A DNA stretch of 64,000 nucleotides. It comes from Paramecium tetraurelia (taxonomy: Eukaryota; Ciliophora; Oligohymenophorea; Peniculida; Parameciidae). The stretch lies in the NCBI RefSeq assembly GCF_000165425.1, contig NW_001799035.1, positions 62,001 through 126,000 on the forward strand, given 5' to 3'. Position numbers and translations under genes: made by a program. The notes beneath the pieces are model-generated. The model was not told where the DNA came from and ran no database searches. It saw nothing but the letters and a program-made list of their open reading frames with translations. Below, piece by piece: positions 12,758-28,953 of this stretch (its first letter is position 1; each line of letters begins with the position of its first letter).

Positions 12758-14455
12758 ATGTTAGTGGATTATAGCGATGATGAGCAGGAGATCATAGACA
12801 ACAAGCCAAAGTCAATATTGGTGAATCCTGAGGTTGATTGTTCACATCTGGTAAAGAAGAAGGAGGAGGAGAAAGCACTTGAATTATCAAAAACATATAA
12901 TTTCCTGGGATAGAAGAAGAATCATCTAACAGGCAATGTAGAATCAATCTATTACAATGATGCAGTGTTTGAAGAGTAATTTCATAAATTCAATGTGTAT
13001 GGTTTTGCAGTTGATCCCAATGGTATAATGATGAATTTAAATTAGAAAGGAATAGAAGAGTGATAGCATGTAATTAAAAATAAGAGCAATTATCTAGTTT
13101 AATGAAAGAAGGTTATGATGTAGATGCAGCAGATCCACTTTTTAGTAAAAATGTACTTGCAGGTATGCACAAAGAAGACAAATTGAAATAATAAGAATTA
13201 AAATCTAATAGAGTGAAGGCTAATGATCCATCCAAAGGAGAGTTTATGGGACCTTGGGCAGGACAATAGGATGAATAATTTGAAAACATACAAATGAATG
13301 AAGAATAATAATAATTGTTAGATCAATTGGAAGAATAGAGAAAATAAAAAATAGATGAATCAAAAAAATAAGAAGAAAACTTTGTGCCTTATATGGAATA
13401 GCATGTAAGTTAAACAGAGTAATTTGGAGGAAGATAATTCATTGCACCGCCACCTGAATTAAAATATGTTGATCACACATGTTATATCCCAAAAAGATGC
13501 ATCTAAACATTTCATGGTCACACTAAGGGTGTATAAGTAATTAAATTCTTTCCCAAATTTGGTCATCTCATGTTGAGTGGTAGTCTAGACAATAAAATTA
13601 AGATGTGGGATATCATTGGTAACAAACAATGTGTCAGAACATATTATGGACATTAAGGAGCATTAAGAGATCTCAATTTCTCCAATGATGGCAGAACATT
13701 TTTGTCCGCTGCCTATGATAAAAAGATTCTAGTTTGGGATACAGAATATGGCAAAGTCACTCAAACCATTAATCTATAACATTTCCCTTATTGTGTAAGA
13801 CTAAATCCAGATCCAGCTAAGCAACATTCATTTTTGTTAGGATCATCAGATAAAAGAATAAAATAGTTTGATATCAGAAGTGGACAATAAACATTAGTAT
13901 ACGATGAACATTTACAAGCCATTAACACAATCACATATTTTAATTAAAATAGAAAATTTGTTTCCAGTTCTGATGACAAAAAACTATTCATCTGGGAATT
14001 TGGTATCCCTGTTGTTATAAAACACATCAGTGATCCTGAAATGCATGCAGTGACTGCTACTGCTGTTAATCCATCTGGACTTAATTGGGTTGGATAACAA
14101 AGTAACAATTTGGTAATTTATTTATCATTAAAATCAAGATCATAGTGTATGACACTAAGGCTGGAAATTTCAGAATGAACAGGAAGAAGAACTTTAAAGG
14201 ACATGTATCTGCAGGATATGCATGTGGAGTTACCTTCTCGGCTGATGGTTAATTCTTAGCCTCTGGTGATTCAGAAGGTAGAGTATTCTTTTGGGATTGG
14301 AAAACAGCCAAAAGTTACAGAACTATCTAGGTAATTATATCATATTTAATGATTAGGCTCATGATAATGTTTGTATAGGAGTTGAATGGCATCCTATTGA
14401 ACCAAGCAAGGTTGTTACTTGTGGATGGGATGGAGTACTTAAATTATGGGATTGA
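12758..14455 (+). CDS. pre-mRNA splicing factor PRP17/CDC40 (WD40)
   Basis: Start 12758, TGA 14453-14455; introns 13023-13045, 14113-14138 (ends CAAG) and 14331-14356; 540 aa. The N-terminal part carries FMGPWAGQ-type and Lys/Glu/Gln-rich segments. Seven WD repeats occupy about residues 225-540, starting [20 protein letters not shown], then [35 protein letters not shown] and the last repeat ending [10 protein letters not shown]. The length and the diagnostic first repeat match PRP17, a second-step spliceosome factor acting in the nucleus. Adjacent genes are functionally unrelated. The introns lie inside codons of conserved repeats, so splicing is secure. Confidence 0.9.
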
Positions 14456-14493: not shown

Positions 14494-16313
14494 TCACTAA
14501 TTTCTGGGTTTTATTTAAATTTTATCATTCATTATACTTAATCGAACAGCATCACATTCTTCTAAATTGTATGAGAAAAATATTTATAATTGATCCTTCA
14601 AAAAATTGTCTTCTATAAAATAGTCAAACTTTGTCTAACAAATTGGACATTTTATTTGATTTAGATCGATTGTCCCATTTTGATGCAAATCTATTATGCC
14701 CTAATCAAAGGGTTAAGCGTGAGTGCAATTATTACCTCTTATTGGCCTTAATATCTTCTTTTTTGATATTGGACACTATATTCACTTAAATTGTTTTACC
14801 TTCAATTAGATTGTTGTTATAGCTTATTTGCCTTTCAAGATTGATTCTTAATCATTTTTTACAATAACCTTTGTAATTAATTTATTGTTCAAATAATTTA
14901 TGAAGTCCTTTTAATTGATATTTACAAATCCAGTGGTTATTGTAATGAAATTCATCATCTTTACATCTACATAGACTTGTTCATGTAGAGCTGTATCTTT
15001 AGGTTTTTATTTCTTTGTGAATGGATTCTTGCAGAGAGGACAATGATCAATGATATTCCCAGCCATTTTTCCTTCAGCAGGGTTTTAAAATTGATACAAA
15101 ATACAACTCATATACCTTAGATCGCACGTTTGAATCTATTCGCATCTGATGCATCTACAAGGTAGCTCTATCCTCTAACCAGTAAATTAACAAAACTTAA
15201 ATTCCAATTTTTCACTCGCAATCTTGTCTAGTGAATGTTTCTAGTAAAACTCCTCTGTTTTTTCCTGATTGATAAGACTTGTGTAAATCTAATCCACTAT
15301 CTTATAGATTTTAGACTAATAATTTAAGTATTCTGATAATTTTGTAAATGATCTATACTTTATTAAATTAATATCTTGTTTCTCTTCCAAAATGTCCTCC
15401 AATTAACGTTTTTCTTTGTTGTATATGAAGGAAAATCTAAAACTGTAGGACTTTAAACAACTGTTGAATAAATCTTAATCTAAACACAAATCTTCTTCTT
15501 TAATTATTGAATTGCAATCAGGTCTTTTGCATTTAAATTATTTTTCTTTTTTATCAAAATGATGCAATAATGCTGTCAAATCATAGACTTCGAAGTGATT
15601 GCAATTCTAACTCCTGACTGGAATCATCACCTTCATAGAACTCAAAGAGCAATTGTTGTAAAACAAAAAGTTAAAATTCGCATTCCACTTTTAAACAAGC
15701 TGATAGAATTAACTTTATGGCATAATTTCCTTTTTCATCAATTTGGCAATCTATTCAAAATAAGCATTCTACAAACTTCCCATTTTCCCCTTGTGCAATG
15801 GGTAGAATGTTTTATCCACGAAGTTATACATCATATGTTATGGAAATTCCCCACACTATTTCTATTATCATGATAATTACTTTTGATCTTAACTAATTAA
15901 TCAACAAATGAGGAAAGAAGGCTTGTTCTATTTTCTCAAACTTCGTTTAAGATTTACATATAGGACATTGTAATACTTTGGCTGCCTGTTGGGTTGCATT
16001 CGAAAAGTATAATTTCAAAAATTGCTCTAAATCTATTAAAGTATCGTAATGTCTGAAGGACTTAAAACATTCTGCTAAGTAAACCTTTATTTTAGTTATT
16101 TATTAATACTGCATATTTTATTGGTTCTTTTGATAAACTACATTCAAAATTTACAGTCATCGTTTGAGTTAAATTACTAAATTTTTTTGTCCTTTCTTCG
16201 AATTCCTTTTCTATATTCGGGTATTATTCATGCGCCTTTTTTACTTCTAGAATAATAGTTGGTATCTCCATCAAAACTTAAGCAGGTTTAGGTGTATTTG
16301 CTTCGGTATTCAT
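14494..16313 (-). CDS. protein with four SP-RING (MIZ/PIAS-type) zinc fingers, putative SUMO E3 ligase
   Basis: Start 16311-16313, TGA 14494-14496; introns 16085-16109, 15862-15880 (19 nt) and 14776-14799; 583 aa. Four finger units are visible in order. (1) CSLSKEPIKYAV ... LAECFKSFRHYD ... CPIC. (2) CSLSSMKVMIPVRSQNCNHF ... YDLTALL ... CKRPDC. (3) CQFTGQRIELPCRCIRCEQI ... CDLRYM ... CPLC. (4) CPISKKKILRPIRGNNCTHA ... FDQGII ... CPIC. Units 2 and 4 keep the Cys/His spacing of SP-RING domains. Units 1 and 3 replace the zinc-binding His by Lys and Gln. No SAP or PINIT domain is seen. SP-RING proteins transfer SUMO from UBC9; four in one chain is unusual. It ends 38 nt from PRP17, convergently. 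Confidence 0.8.
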
Positions 16314-23382: not shown

Positions 23383-25305
23383 ATGTCTGCTTTAAGAGTG
23401 GTCTTGTTAGGAGTTTTAGGACATGGAAAAACATACCTATTTAATAAAATAACCAATGCAAATGAAGCTGTAATTTATGGAGGAAAGTCAGTAACAAAAT
23501 AAATTGTGATTGGTTAAGCTGCACATGGAGAATTTGAAGTTGTTGATACACCTGGATTCGATGCATCGGAGGATAAATTATTACACGCTGCTGGTGTAAT
23601 TGCAGCATTGGCATAGGGAGATGTCAACAGAATTCTGATTGTTGTCAAATGTGAAAGAACAGACATCATGATAAAAAATATCAAAAAAGTCATTGGATCA
23701 ATTTAAAGATACAAAGATTTAATCACGATTGTTGTAACTTATTGGGACGAATAATAAAGAAACATACGACATCGTTATAAAAGTTAGGAATCCTAATAAC
23801 AACAAGAATTAGAAGCAAAATATTAAATAGAAACAGCAATTAAAAACAATTTTAATATCTCTTCAGTAATAATTTCTTCATTTGAAGATGATCCTATTAT
23901 TATCACAGAAAAAATAACTAAGATTATTCTTTTATCTCGATTTACTAAAATTCACTTACAAGAATCAGAAATCTATAGTCAATTTGACTTAATAAGCGTA
24001 AGTGAAGAATCTGAAATGGAATTTAATAAATCAATTTCTTAAATTAGGAGTAGTTTTAGAAAAATCTCAAAATTATTTTTAATGTACATAGAAACTTAGT
24101 AACTAAATGAAAATTATTTGATTGACAAATTGCATTACTTATCACTATCTATTAAAAGCATTGCAAATGAATTTATTGAAAAATTTGAAAGGCAATATGG
24201 AGATTATATGAATGAAACCTATGATACAGATGGCATAAATGTAAGATACCTACATCATATTTATCTGAAAAAGGAACTTCGATTGGATCTTGAATAAGTT
24301 ATTAAAAAAGCATAATCTAAAATGAAAGAATCTTAAATTCACTGTTTTAATTGGATTAAATAGTGTCCTTATTGTGGATTAGTCTGGATAAAAGTTGTTG
24401 GTTGTGATAATGAAACTACATGTGGAAATAGGGTAGATTCTTATTTTGACGATCTGCTGGTAAGAACTTAAAATGAAAAGCGTTTCAAAATAATAGTAAA
24501 TAATGATTCTGTTGATATTGAGATATTGGATGAATAAAAAAGTGAAAAAAAATTAGTAATTTAATAAGATCTAAATATATATTAAATATTGTTCAATTCT
24601 ATAAAGGACAATCCTGTATTAAGTAAGAATTTTAAAATTTACTATTCATTTTTTAATTCAGATTCAGATTCGGATTTAGAATAGTTAAAAGTTGAATTGG
24701 TTATTTCTATTTTAGGTTTATAAAGAGTTGACTACTATATTAAAAATATATATGAAGTAGATCAAGAAATGATGATTAATGAGTTCAAATTTCTACTTAG
24801 AGAATCTGGATGGTTCTAATCTGATTTTCCAAACTTGAATTTTTATAAGTAAAAATCATTAGGATGTGGGAATGTAATTGTGTGGAAAGATTTAGCTCCT
24901 CTGAGTGGACCACTTTTATAAGAATTACTATCACCTGAATTGCTTGATTATTTCAATGATCAGGAATAATTATTAAAAGATGAAGCTGACGATATTGCAA
25001 AAGAGTTGGAAAGGACCTATAAAAATCTTATGAATTAAGCAATTACTGAATAATTGAAGAATATAAAAGTAATCCCAAAGCTATTAAATATCATGGAAAC
25101 TTTAGACGATACAGTAAAACAAAAATAGGAACAATATAACTAAAATCTTTAGTAAAATTTTTAAAATCATATTGAAAAAACAAAGATTGAACAATAAAAT
25201 GTTAAAAGAAGATACAGCATTAAAATGAGTATAGATGATAATTTTAATTCAGATACTGAAAATGCTGATAGTTCTCGAATAGAAGTGCCTAAGGATAATC
25301 ATTGA
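23383..25305 (+). CDS. AIG1/GIMAP-like GTPase with C-terminal Cys motif, copy 1
   Basis: Single exon, 640 aa. G domain at the N-terminus: P-loop GVLGHGKTYLFNK, switch GGKSVTKQIVIGQ, G3 VVDTPGFDAS, G4-like VVTYWDE. A long helical middle follows. Next is a cysteine motif QCPYCGLVWIKVVGCDNE then TTCGNR (residues about 327-350), and a conserved block GCGNVIVWKDLAPLSGP near residue 495. The C-terminus is coiled-coil and Gln-rich. SVTK and DTPG resemble AIG1/IAN GTPases; the Cys motif looks zinc-binding (RING/IBR-like). It is the longest of three tandem copies; Tyr follows the P-loop Thr where the others have Ala. Confidence 0.8.
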
Positions 25306-25473
25306 TTACTTTTTGACTTTGCTCGGAATAATCATTTTTAATTAAACTTTAATGATCTGAGTTTATTTTAAATATATTATAAAATTAACTTTCTTAATAG
25401 AAAAATCTTATTCTATTAGAAAGCTACTATCGATATTCATATATATATTGATTTAGAAATAGAAATAGAAATA

Positions 25474-27177
25474 ATGAAAAAATTTAGAATTGCTCTCTTA
25501 GGGTCGATAGGAGCGGGTAAAACTGCTTTTTTTAATCGCATTACATCTTCTAATGAACCTGAAATTTCAGGAGGCCCATCAGTAACAAAAAATGTTGTAG
25601 TTGGATAAGCAACAATAGGTGAGTTTGAAGTAGTAGACACCCCAGGTTTTGAAAGTGAAAGTGACAAATTAGTACATGCTGCTGGTGTTATTGCAGCATT
25701 AACTTTAGGAGATGTTAATCGAATCCTTATATTTGTAAAGTTTGATCGAGATGATAGAATGATTAGTTCAATTCGACAAGTATTGTCTCCGATTAAGAGA
25801 TATAAAGATATCGTAACAATTTTAGTTTCTCATTTCGATCATTCAAGGAATATTGCTGATGATTAAGATCGCTTTTCATAGAGAATAAAATAAGAGTTTA
25901 ATATAGACTCAATTTTATTTTATTCCATCTTATCATTTGACAATAATGATATTTCAATGAAAATCATTAACATCCTAAATTAATCAGATTAGAAATCAAT
26001 TTTATTACAAGATTCAGAAATATTTAGTTAATTTGATTTTATGCAATTAGATGATTACAATTAGACAAAATTAGAAAAGAATTAATCAGCTATTCTACGT
26101 CAATTTAGAAAAACTGCAAGAATATATAAATCATTTATTGAGTCAATAGATTTGAATGACCCTCTACTTATTGATATTTTACATGAATTAACAAAGGATA
26201 TTAAAGCTGAAGCAAATAGGCATGTTGAAGAATTTGAGATTTTGCATGGAGATGAATTAAACGAATTCTTTGATGTATAAGGTGTTAACATTCGATATCT
26301 GCATCATATTTATTTAAAAAAATAAATTTGGTTGGATTTAAATAATGTGATTAAATTAGCCCAAACGACAATGACAAAATGCCAAATTCATATATATCAT
26401 TTCATAAAATTATGTCCATATTGTAAATAACCTTGGATGAAGGTGTTTGGTTGCGATGGAGAAACTAAATGTGGAAATAGAATTCTCCCTTTTGAATAAG
26501 ATGAAATTATTGGTCAAGCATCAGCACCGAAGAAATTTGAAATCAAAATTATAGATAATCAATTATAAGTTGATATTGTCCGTCCTACTAGCTAATAATA
26601 TTCAACTGTAAAGGAGGAAATAAGCTCAAAGTTTAATTAAATATATAAATACTTTAAAAATGATATACATTTTTAGAAACATTTAGGATAGAATTTTACT
26701 AAAACAGACTTATGGAATTTAATGAACTAGAAATTTGGAAATCGTTTAGATGATATTTGTTAAAGGATTAATGATGAGAATAAAGGAAAGCAATTATAAT
26801 AACTCAGAATTTATTTTTATAGTTTTTTTAAAGTTGAAAATGCAGATGATAATTCAAATAAATCGATTGGATGCGGAAGGAAATTTAATTGGTCAGAACA
26901 ACCTCCTTTGAGTGGGCCTGAATTAAATGAATTACTTTCACAAGATTTGATTGATTTTTTTAATAGGGATTAAGAAAAATTATTAAAAGATGAAGCATAT
27001 TTTTTAGAACTTTCATATAAAAAGTTAGTAAAAGATGCCATTGAAGAACAAAAAAAAACTACAAAAATATTATCATCTCAATTTTCCTCACAACAGGAGA
27101 TTAAAGCAAATAACATCTAGTCTAATGTTGCATCAGCCAATAAAGAATATAATTATTTTAAAACTAAAATCTATTGA
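25474..27177 (+). CDS. AIG1/GIMAP-like GTPase with C-terminal Cys motif, copy 2
   Basis: Single exon, 567 aa. P-loop GSIGAGKTAFFNR, switch GGPSVTKNVVVGQ, G3 VVDTPGFESE, G4-like LVSHFDHS. The shared block IRYLHHIYLKKQIWLDLNNV precedes the Cys motif LCPYCKQPWMKVFGCDGE and KCGNR. Later GCGRKFNWSEQPPLSGPELN is conserved with the neighbours. It begins 168 nt after copy 1 and is read in the same direction. Predicted GTP-binding and self-assembly function comes from family knowledge; no membrane segment is seen. Copies 2 and 3 are closer to each other in length and P-loop than to copy 1. Confidence 0.8.
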
Positions 27178-27327
27178 ATGACCTTTATATCTTATATAAT
27201 TTTAGCATAATTGTTAGTATAATTATTTTGTTATAAATTTTCATTCTTTTTTTAGGAATCAAACAAATGTTGATATATATGTTGAATAAAATTTTAATAG
27301 AATTAATAAAAGCTAATTAAGGAATTT

Positions 27328-28953
27328 ATGGACGTATTAAGAGTTGTTCTTGTAGGTGTTATTGGATCTGGCAAAACTGCATTTTTTAATAATTTGACAA
27401 AGAATTAAGAGCCTGTAAAATAGGGAGGAGCATCTGTTACTAAATAAGTAGTAGTTGGATAATGCATTTTTGGAGAGCAGTTTGAAGTAATTGATACCCC
27501 TGGGTTCGAATCTGATGAAGAAAAATTATTACATGCTGCAGGAGTAATTGCAGCACTTTCAATAGGCGATGTTAATAGAATATTATTAATATAAAAATTT
27601 GACAGAGATGGAGTAATGATGAATGCATTGTAATAAGTCATAGCTCCAATCACTAGATATAGGGATATGGTAACGGTTATAGTATCACATTGGGATCTTT
27701 CAGAAAATAAAGAACAAGATTAATAGCATTTAACAAAGAAAATAAAGGATAGATTTAATATTGGATCTATTCTTTATTATTCTAAACTTAATGATCCTAA
27801 AGTTATCGCTCTATTAGTTTAAAATATAATTTTTGAATCAAAACTAACATCTATTAAATTATCAGATACAGAAATAATTAGTTAGTTTGATTTATCAACT
27901 TTGAATTATGAAAGTCAAGATAAATTAGAAAGAGATAAAGAATAAATTATTAAGTCATTTAGAAAGACGGCATAGGTGTTTATTAAATATATAAATGAAG
28001 AGGTTAATTTGGATGACCCTAAAGCTGTTGATATTTTGCATTTTATATCATTAGAAATTAAGAATATTGCAAATAAATAAGTGGAGCAGTTTGAAAAATA
28101 GCATGGAGAACAACTTAATGAGTTTTATGATACGAATGGAATTAATGTTAGCTATTTACATCATATATATCTAAAAAAAGAAATAAAAAAGGATCTTGAA
28201 AAGGTAATTAAATTGGCTTAAGAAAAAATGATTAATTCAAAAAATCATTGTTTTTAATGTTTAAAACAATGTCCACATTGTAAATTAATATGGATTAAAG
28301 TTGCTGGATGTGATGGATAAACTACTTGTGGAAATAGAGTTTATACCACTTCAGATTCATTATTGAAAAACTCTTCAACTAAATGTAGATACGAAATTGA
28401 ATTAGAATCAAACAAATTAGTGTTGAAAGAAATTTAATTCAGTAATACACAAAATACATCTTAGAAATCATAGTCTGATTCAAATTAAGATTATATTTAC
28501 CAAATTATAAGGGAGGATAAGTATTTATAGAAAGTTCTTGGACAAAACTTTACAAAGGATTAATTTGAGAAGTTAATAAGAGAGAAGAATGATATGAATT
28601 AAAATTTAATGTATTCATTTTTGAGGTTGAAACCTGATGATGATATAATTAAATGGATTTACTAATAGTTGGATATAGAAAGGGATATTGAAAAATAAAA
28701 TGATAAGAAAAATAAAAGATTTGGCTGCGGATAAGAATTAATTTGGTCAGAATTGCCACCCTTGAGTGGACCTGAATTAAATGAATTACTATCAATTGAA
28801 TTAATAGATTATTTCAATGATTAGGCATAATTAATTAATGACGAAAGTAAATTCTTAGAGGCAGCTTATAAAGACCTTGTTAACCAAGCTATATAAGAGC
28901 AATATAAGACAAAGAAAGTGATCTAATTGTAAAAGTAGAGTGAAACATAATGA
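27328..28953 (+). CDS. AIG1/GIMAP-like GTPase with C-terminal Cys motif, copy 3
   Basis: Single exon, 541 aa, ending right before the convergent uracil phosphoribosyltransferase gene (44 nt apart). P-loop GVIGSGKTAFFNN, switch GGASVTKQVVVGQ, G3 VIDTPGFESDEE, G4-like IVSHWDLS. Shared block VSYLHHIYLKKEIKKDLEK, Cys motif QCPHCKLIWIKVAGCDGQ with TTCGNR, then GCGQELIWSELPPLSGPELN. All three copies lack introns, unlike most genes here, which fits duplication of an intron-poor ancestor. Function unknown beyond GTP binding. Confidence 0.8.

Follow-up and report, generated by a model that had tools for sequence, protein, structure and literature searches.

To our knowledge, the SP-RING ligases of solved structure matched in this work (PIAS2, PIAS3, SIZ1, SIZ2 and NSE2) are single-module types. 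According to the available text of PMC8636563, Nse2 holds the E2 via a loop around Ile186 plus Tyr212, Arg219 and Asp220; its His202 is a zinc ligand that touches the donor SUMO, with Ile186 lying 16 residues earlier. Single SP-RING proteins of ciliates, atypical or with chromatin partners, are already in print, namely Tetrahymena Ema2 (PMC10830130) and Miz1 (PMC6562869). The available text on Ema2 describes an atypical SP-RING protein that binds Ubc9 in vitro, and whose loss lowers the high-weight SUMOylated proteins of mid-conjugation to about half (PMC10830130). Besides Ema2, that paper names three more SP-RING proteins.

Here we describe a Paramecium tetraurelia gene whose predicted product carries four SP-RING modules in one chain of 581 residues. 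It lies at 14494..16313, on the reverse strand, of the window, the 64,000-nucleotide stretch of DNA that was analysed, which belongs to contig C82 of a 69 Mb genome. Its likeness to the Siz/PIAS ligases resides in the match to zf-MIZ, in the C-x-H ... C-P-x-C of its fourth unit, and in the solved structures that units 2 and 4 match best, namely PIAS2, PIAS3, SIZ1 and SIZ2. It differs from them by its four modules, as opposed to one in canonical PIAS-like proteins, by the lack of a SAP domain in Pfam, by the missing canonical Trp, and by the altered zinc sets of units 1 and 3. With Nse2/Mms21 it shares the last ligand pair of unit 2, C-x4-C as in Nse2 C221/C226 (PMC8636563, available text), and a score over the zf-Nse (PF11789) cut-off (28.5 bits for the full protein, cut-off 27). 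However, it is multi-module, and this score is far under that of zf-MIZ (PF02891; E = 3.2e-19, 68.9 bits, Pfam cut-off 33.5). As far as published descriptions go, it resembles Ema2 and Miz1 in being a ciliate SP-RING protein, but the available text on Ema2 speaks of one SP-RING, against four here (PMC10830130), and that on Miz1 does not mention repeats (PMC6562869).

Genes of this genome use code 6 and have introns of about 25 nt. A small gene finder trained on the long ORFs of the genome, combined with paralogue alignment, gave a model of four exons (16313-16110, 16084-15881, 15855-14800 and 14775-14494, reverse strand) separated by predicted introns of 25, 25 and 24 nt. The first intron (16085..16109, reverse strand, phase 0) falls within unit 1 and is common to the family described below, and the last one (14799-14776, reverse strand) interrupts unit 4. 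The gene finder closed the last exon with an extra 34-nt intron; we left this exon open to the stop at 14494, yielding the 581-residue protein. The reading frame of the middle part is backed by alignment with the paralogues L009 and L045. When rerun with a larger training set, the gene finder skipped 15957-15928 (30 nt) as an additional intron in unit 1, which we rejected because it would delete C111, a ligand Cys that both paralogues have. A WD40 protein gene (12758-14455, forward strand), whose product looks like the splicing factor PRP17 by eye, is convergent with the SP-RING gene, at a gap of about 38 bp. Elsewhere in the window, three tandem P-loop genes (23383-28953, forward strand) have similar starts, and a scan of the first of them alone gave a match to the GTPase family MMR_HSR1.

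The earlier note had claimed four consecutive SP-RING units and proposed to compare each of them with the zf-MIZ profile. This comparison confirmed the claim: zf-MIZ ranks first in Pfam for every unit taken alone (0.0018, 1.3e-7, 0.021 and 2.5e-10 for units 1-4), and is the sole family listed for unit 3. Since unit 4 alone, with 40.4 bits, passes the zf-MIZ cut-off, units 1-3 alone falling below it, a second line of evidence was needed for units 1 and 3. Profile-profile comparison (hhalign) of alignments of paralogous units with the canonical SP-RINGs of the genome returned probabilities of 96.7, 96.8, 95.2 and 89.4% (units 1-4), the value for unit 2 being obtained after removal of an internal stretch from rows L011, L014, L017, L010B and L016B of its alignment. 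The canonical profile matched all four window units (0.0079, 7e-7, 0.019 and 7e-10), and the unit 3 profile of subfamily B, defined below, likewise picked up all four. Chance similarity was ruled out with 300 shuffled sequences, among which, at a threshold of 0.02, none was matched by the unit-3 profile, one by the canonical, one by the unit-2 and two by the unit-1 profile.

These data also support the identity of the units as SP-RING/MIZ and not RING or TRAF, which we rejected on the Pfam ranking and on the 89-97% profile-profile matches to canonical SP-RINGs. In a Pfam scan of the window protein with E up to 1, which mostly filters weak matches above 0.1, no RING family was found except for a weak match of Baculo_RING (0.045) to unit 4 alone. 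Among solved structures, PIAS2 and PIAS3 lead the matches to the unit 2 profile (PIAS2, 4.1e-6, with the same shortened rows), and a phmmer search with unit 4 retrieved SIZ2 (1.3e-4), SIZ1 (3.2e-4) and PIAS3 (3.6e-4). C2H2 fingers came on top for the unit 1 profile, with the first PIAS/SIZ match in third position (SIZ2, 0.0017), and C2H2 fingers and DnaI for the unit 3 profile, with the first PIAS/SIZ match in fourth (PIAS2, 0.0038). As anticipated, no SAP family was detected for the window protein in Pfam with E up to 1. The PINIT model PF14324 had no match anywhere in the genome, not even at the canonical PIAS-like genes. With four SP-RING units in a 581-residue chain, the description as a repeat-expanded protein is upheld. 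An AlphaFold prediction of exon 3 (units 2 and 3) from the single sequence was of very low confidence (mean pLDDT 32.7), and no claim is built on it. A scan of viral contigs with the unit 2 alignment yielded 11 pattern matches and no confirmed relative.

The four units differ in the layout of their predicted zinc ligands. Unit 2 (aa 200-285; 15409..15666, reverse strand) has C221, H223, C245 and C250, in a C-x-H ... C-x4-C arrangement that is invariant in 10/10 rows, and equally so with uncut rows. Unit 4 (aa 482-556; 14572..14820, reverse strand) has C505, H507, C531 and C534, in the canonical layout. The full zinc set attributed to these two units thus stands, C-x-H being followed by C-x4-C in the former and by CxxC in the latter. 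Units 1 and 3 had both been said to have lost their His, which proved right for unit 3 and wrong for unit 1. Unit 1 (aa 55-123; 15920..16151, reverse strand) is predicted to use C74, H80, C108 and C111; in its ECFKSFRH motif the His is displaced downstream by four residues relative to the usual C-x-H, giving C-x5-H. Its ligand columns, His included, are invariant in 11/11 aligned units, the last pair being C-x-C in L017 and L018, and the nearest paralogues L009 and L045 likewise have C-x5-H. In unit 3 (aa 356-441; 14941..15198, reverse strand), the canonical His is absent in 12/12 aligned units, while RCxxC ... CPxC is invariant in 12/12, with an invariant Cys three positions upstream of the first canonical ligand. 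Because this upstream Cys stands in place of the His, the probable site is a four-Cys variant formed by C371 and C374 (C-x2-C), C408 and C411. A C, H, C, C ligand set hence fits units 2 and 4, and unit 1 with altered spacing, and unit 3 has C, C, C, C.

This conservation extends to the closest relatives of the gene. The three members of subfamily A (the window protein, L009 and L045) share just 29.4-32.1% pairwise identity and 91 invariant positions out of 581, which include the full set of 16 predicted ligands (hypergeometric P = 4e-14), although the first pair of L045 unit 4 is C-x2-H and its ligand match depends on a one-residue alignment gap. The distinction between two active and two degenerate modules drawn in the earlier note is therefore not supported: the degeneracy of units 1 and 3 is contradicted by their invariant ligand columns (11/11, 12/12, and 3/3 in subfamily A). 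Taken together, the sequences indicate that each of the four units holds a complete and conserved predicted four-ligand zinc set, and that none looks dead.

Searches of the genome with its own sequences, together with gene models, defined a multi-SP-RING family of 12 loci, one of them perhaps broken, that fall into two subfamilies. Subfamily A comprises the window gene and its nearest relatives, L009 (C138) and L045 (C156). Subfamily B comprises L010, L011, L013a, L013b, L014, L016, L017, L018 and L028; the family genes found after L009 and L045 are on C21, C51, C174, C113 and C40. L028 (4213-4020 on C51) is a near-duplicate of the L010 gene whose models are split in two; it may be broken or mis-modelled, and was excluded from all alignments. 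L010 (1317-4776 on C51) and L016 (3802-772 on C174) are predicted to encode proteins of about 1,000 residues with three plus four SP-RING-type units, and in both the exon that spans the join between the three and the four units is an open frame without TGA. The canonical profile detects 5/7 units in L010, where unit 2 of the first half is broken in the gene model, and 6/7 in L016. The unit counts of subfamily B were read from the alignment, and the canonical profile alone finds fewer (2 to 6 per protein). By contrast, the canonical PIAS-like proteins have one profile match each (17/17), among 167 predicted proteins of which 45 come from overlapping chunks, and where the window protein is represented by an alternative 562-residue model without C111. 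By these gene models, the architecture is not unique to the window gene, and arrays reach up to seven units per chain. The marks of the family, C-x4-C in unit 2, C-x2-C in unit 3 and the intron in unit 1, are all present in the window gene.

The alignments behind these comparisons contained 11 rows for unit 1 (A1, without L013b and L045), 10 for unit 2 (A2, without the first half of L010, L013b and L045), 12 for unit 3 (A3, without L045) and 9 for unit 4 (A4, without L013b and L045, and with L010 and L016 represented by their second halves, as the first halves lack this unit); a fifth one (A5) held 10 of the 17 canonical units. In unit 4 of subfamily B, the C-x-H is lost in 7/7 rows (L010, L011, L013a, L014, L016, L017 and L018); one Cys and a cluster resembling C-x-C-x2-C take the place of C-x-H ... 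CPxC, with a conserved HEAF/HEAL...AL stretch after them. This cluster may form another four-Cys site. The family shares its genome with canonical PIAS-like genes, and the genome search also returned 12 zf-Nse matches. SUMO-like domains (PF11976) occur in the genome as well, mixed with apparent polyubiquitin arrays, so that their count is inflated. At G000 C183:101086-103584 and C71:118771-119897, the PF11976 matches are mostly 228 nt apart, as in polyubiquitin with its 76-residue unit.

How old is the series of units? The intron in unit 1 occupies the same alignment column and phase in 8/8 family proteins, from both subfamilies (8/11 gene models), and two introns of the window gene are positioned as in both other members of subfamily A. 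In a tree of the units, those in second position in the two subfamilies grouped together (11/11) with a support of 0.943, or 0.935 with uncut rows. Window unit 2 and the subfamily B unit 2 profile were mutual best matches, at 3e-16, or 2.6e-15 with uncut rows, the uncut-row profile matching 1/300 shuffles. Third units grouped together as well (12/13, that of L013b falling outside), with a support of 0.828 that decreased to 0.493 when uncut unit 2 rows were used. Window unit 3 and the subfamily B unit 3 profile were again mutual best matches (1e-8). Given this reciprocity, and a tree support of just 0.493 with uncut rows, we give the profile test more weight than the tree for unit 3. The subfamily B profiles of units 1 and 4 failed to pick out window units 1 and 4, so that positional correspondence by profile is limited to units 2 and 3, with unit 1 being linked through its intron. 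For unit 4, subfamily A is near the canonical SP-RINGs, and the A and B units are linked neither by profile nor by tree. From the grouping of units 2 and 3 and the common intron of unit 1, we infer that a series of at least units 1, 2 and 3 was already present in the common ancestor of the two subfamilies. This conclusion on order and age stands despite the weaker tree support for unit 3, since the profile test and the common intron agree.

Subfamily B and the canonical PIAS-like genes also differ in evolutionary rate. Ratios of dN/dS, calculated with a simple counting method in this AT-rich genome, ranged from 0.02 to 0.28 for canonical PIAS-like pairs (n = 7, among L012-L042, one with saturated dS). 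The four subfamily B pairs, which overlap in sequences and are not independent, gave higher values: 0.69 for L010/L011, 0.45 for L014/L016, and 0.42 for both L014/L011 and L010/L016. This fast evolution of subfamily B could reflect relaxed constraint. Within subfamily A, the window gene and L045 gave 0.40 with dS near saturation (1.76), and dS between the window gene and L009 was infinite.

What might such a protein do? With modest confidence, we favor the reading that the window protein works as a SUMO E3 ligase built of several SP-RING modules. Unit 4, with its SIZ2-like run LKCPIS...CTH...CPIC, would bind SUMO-charged Ubc9, perhaps together with unit 2. More hesitantly, units 1 and 3, with their rebuilt zinc loops, might be folded and hold the chain, the substrate or the donor SUMO in position, without taking part in discharge. 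The position equivalent to Nse2 Ile186, placed 16 residues before the zinc His in units 2 and 4 and located in units 1 and 3 by reference to the first aligned Cys, is hydrophobic in all four units (L60, L207, F360 and I491). No counterpart of the E2-contact pair Arg219/Asp220 of Nse2 was found in the window protein, and the Trp that lies two residues ahead of CPxC in all 10 aligned canonical units is replaced by L, F, D and I in units 1-4.

The loss of this Trp from all four units raises a second reading, that the protein is a catalytically dead scaffold, in which tandem SP-RING folds serve as zinc-stabilised modules that bind SUMO, substrates or chromatin partners but discharge no E2. Although the rebuilt zinc loops of units 1 and 3, the high dN/dS of subfamily B relative to canonical pairs and the absence of the canonical C-x-H from its unit 4 (7/7 rows) also point in this direction, window unit 4 alone exceeds the zf-MIZ cut-off and keeps CPI...C-x-H...CPxC, the E2-loop position is hydrophobic throughout, and Ema2, an atypical ciliate SP-RING protein, still binds Ubc9 (PMC10830130, available text). 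We regard a scaffold as possible but the less likely outcome, the hydrophobic E2-loop residues and the SIZ2-like unit 4, weighed against the missing Trp, leading us to prefer a SUMO E3. It appears improbable that the protein is a ubiquitin-type E3, or an unrelated zinc-ribbon or RING protein that is merely SP-RING-like: the profiles of units 1 and 3 do gather C2H2 fingers above the first PIAS/SIZ, mostly via their CxxC half, but in Pfam zf-MIZ comes first for every unit, and the sole RING match there with E up to 1, weak matches above 0.1 being mostly filtered, is the weak one of Baculo_RING to unit 4 alone. It is very improbable that the gene is a pseudogene or that its model is mis-joined, for even though the introns were predicted without RNA and the rerun gave the alternative 30-nt intron in unit 1, the gene has 581 open codons, three introns of which two are placed as in both subfamily A relatives, a dN/dS of 0.40 against L045 (dS near saturation), and ligands conserved across subfamily A.

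On the favored reading of a SUMO E3, one may speculate further, with considerable doubt, that the family represents a ciliate type of SUMO ligase whose 4-7 SP-RING modules, each with its own zinc set, share the work within one chain. One module would hold charged Ubc9, and others would clamp a second E2 or SUMO, whether donor or backside, making the enzyme processive or chain-building. The pace of its sister branch, several times that of ordinary PIAS proteins, would be expected of a part in some conflict over the germline genome, for instance in scan-RNA-guided DNA elimination.

A literature search for proteins with several SP-RINGs showed none among the matches listed, one of them a paper matching "MIZ domains", and a search for zf-MIZ in ciliates gave no match. 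DNA elimination in Paramecium requires SUMO and its E1 (Matsuda and Forney 2006, cited in PMC10830130). Since the available text of PMC10830130 does not name the E3s of this process, the family described here supplies concrete candidates. With four or more non-equivalent modules per chain, it would also allow a natural test of the use of an additional SP-RING, and of which zinc layouts remain competent for Ubc9.
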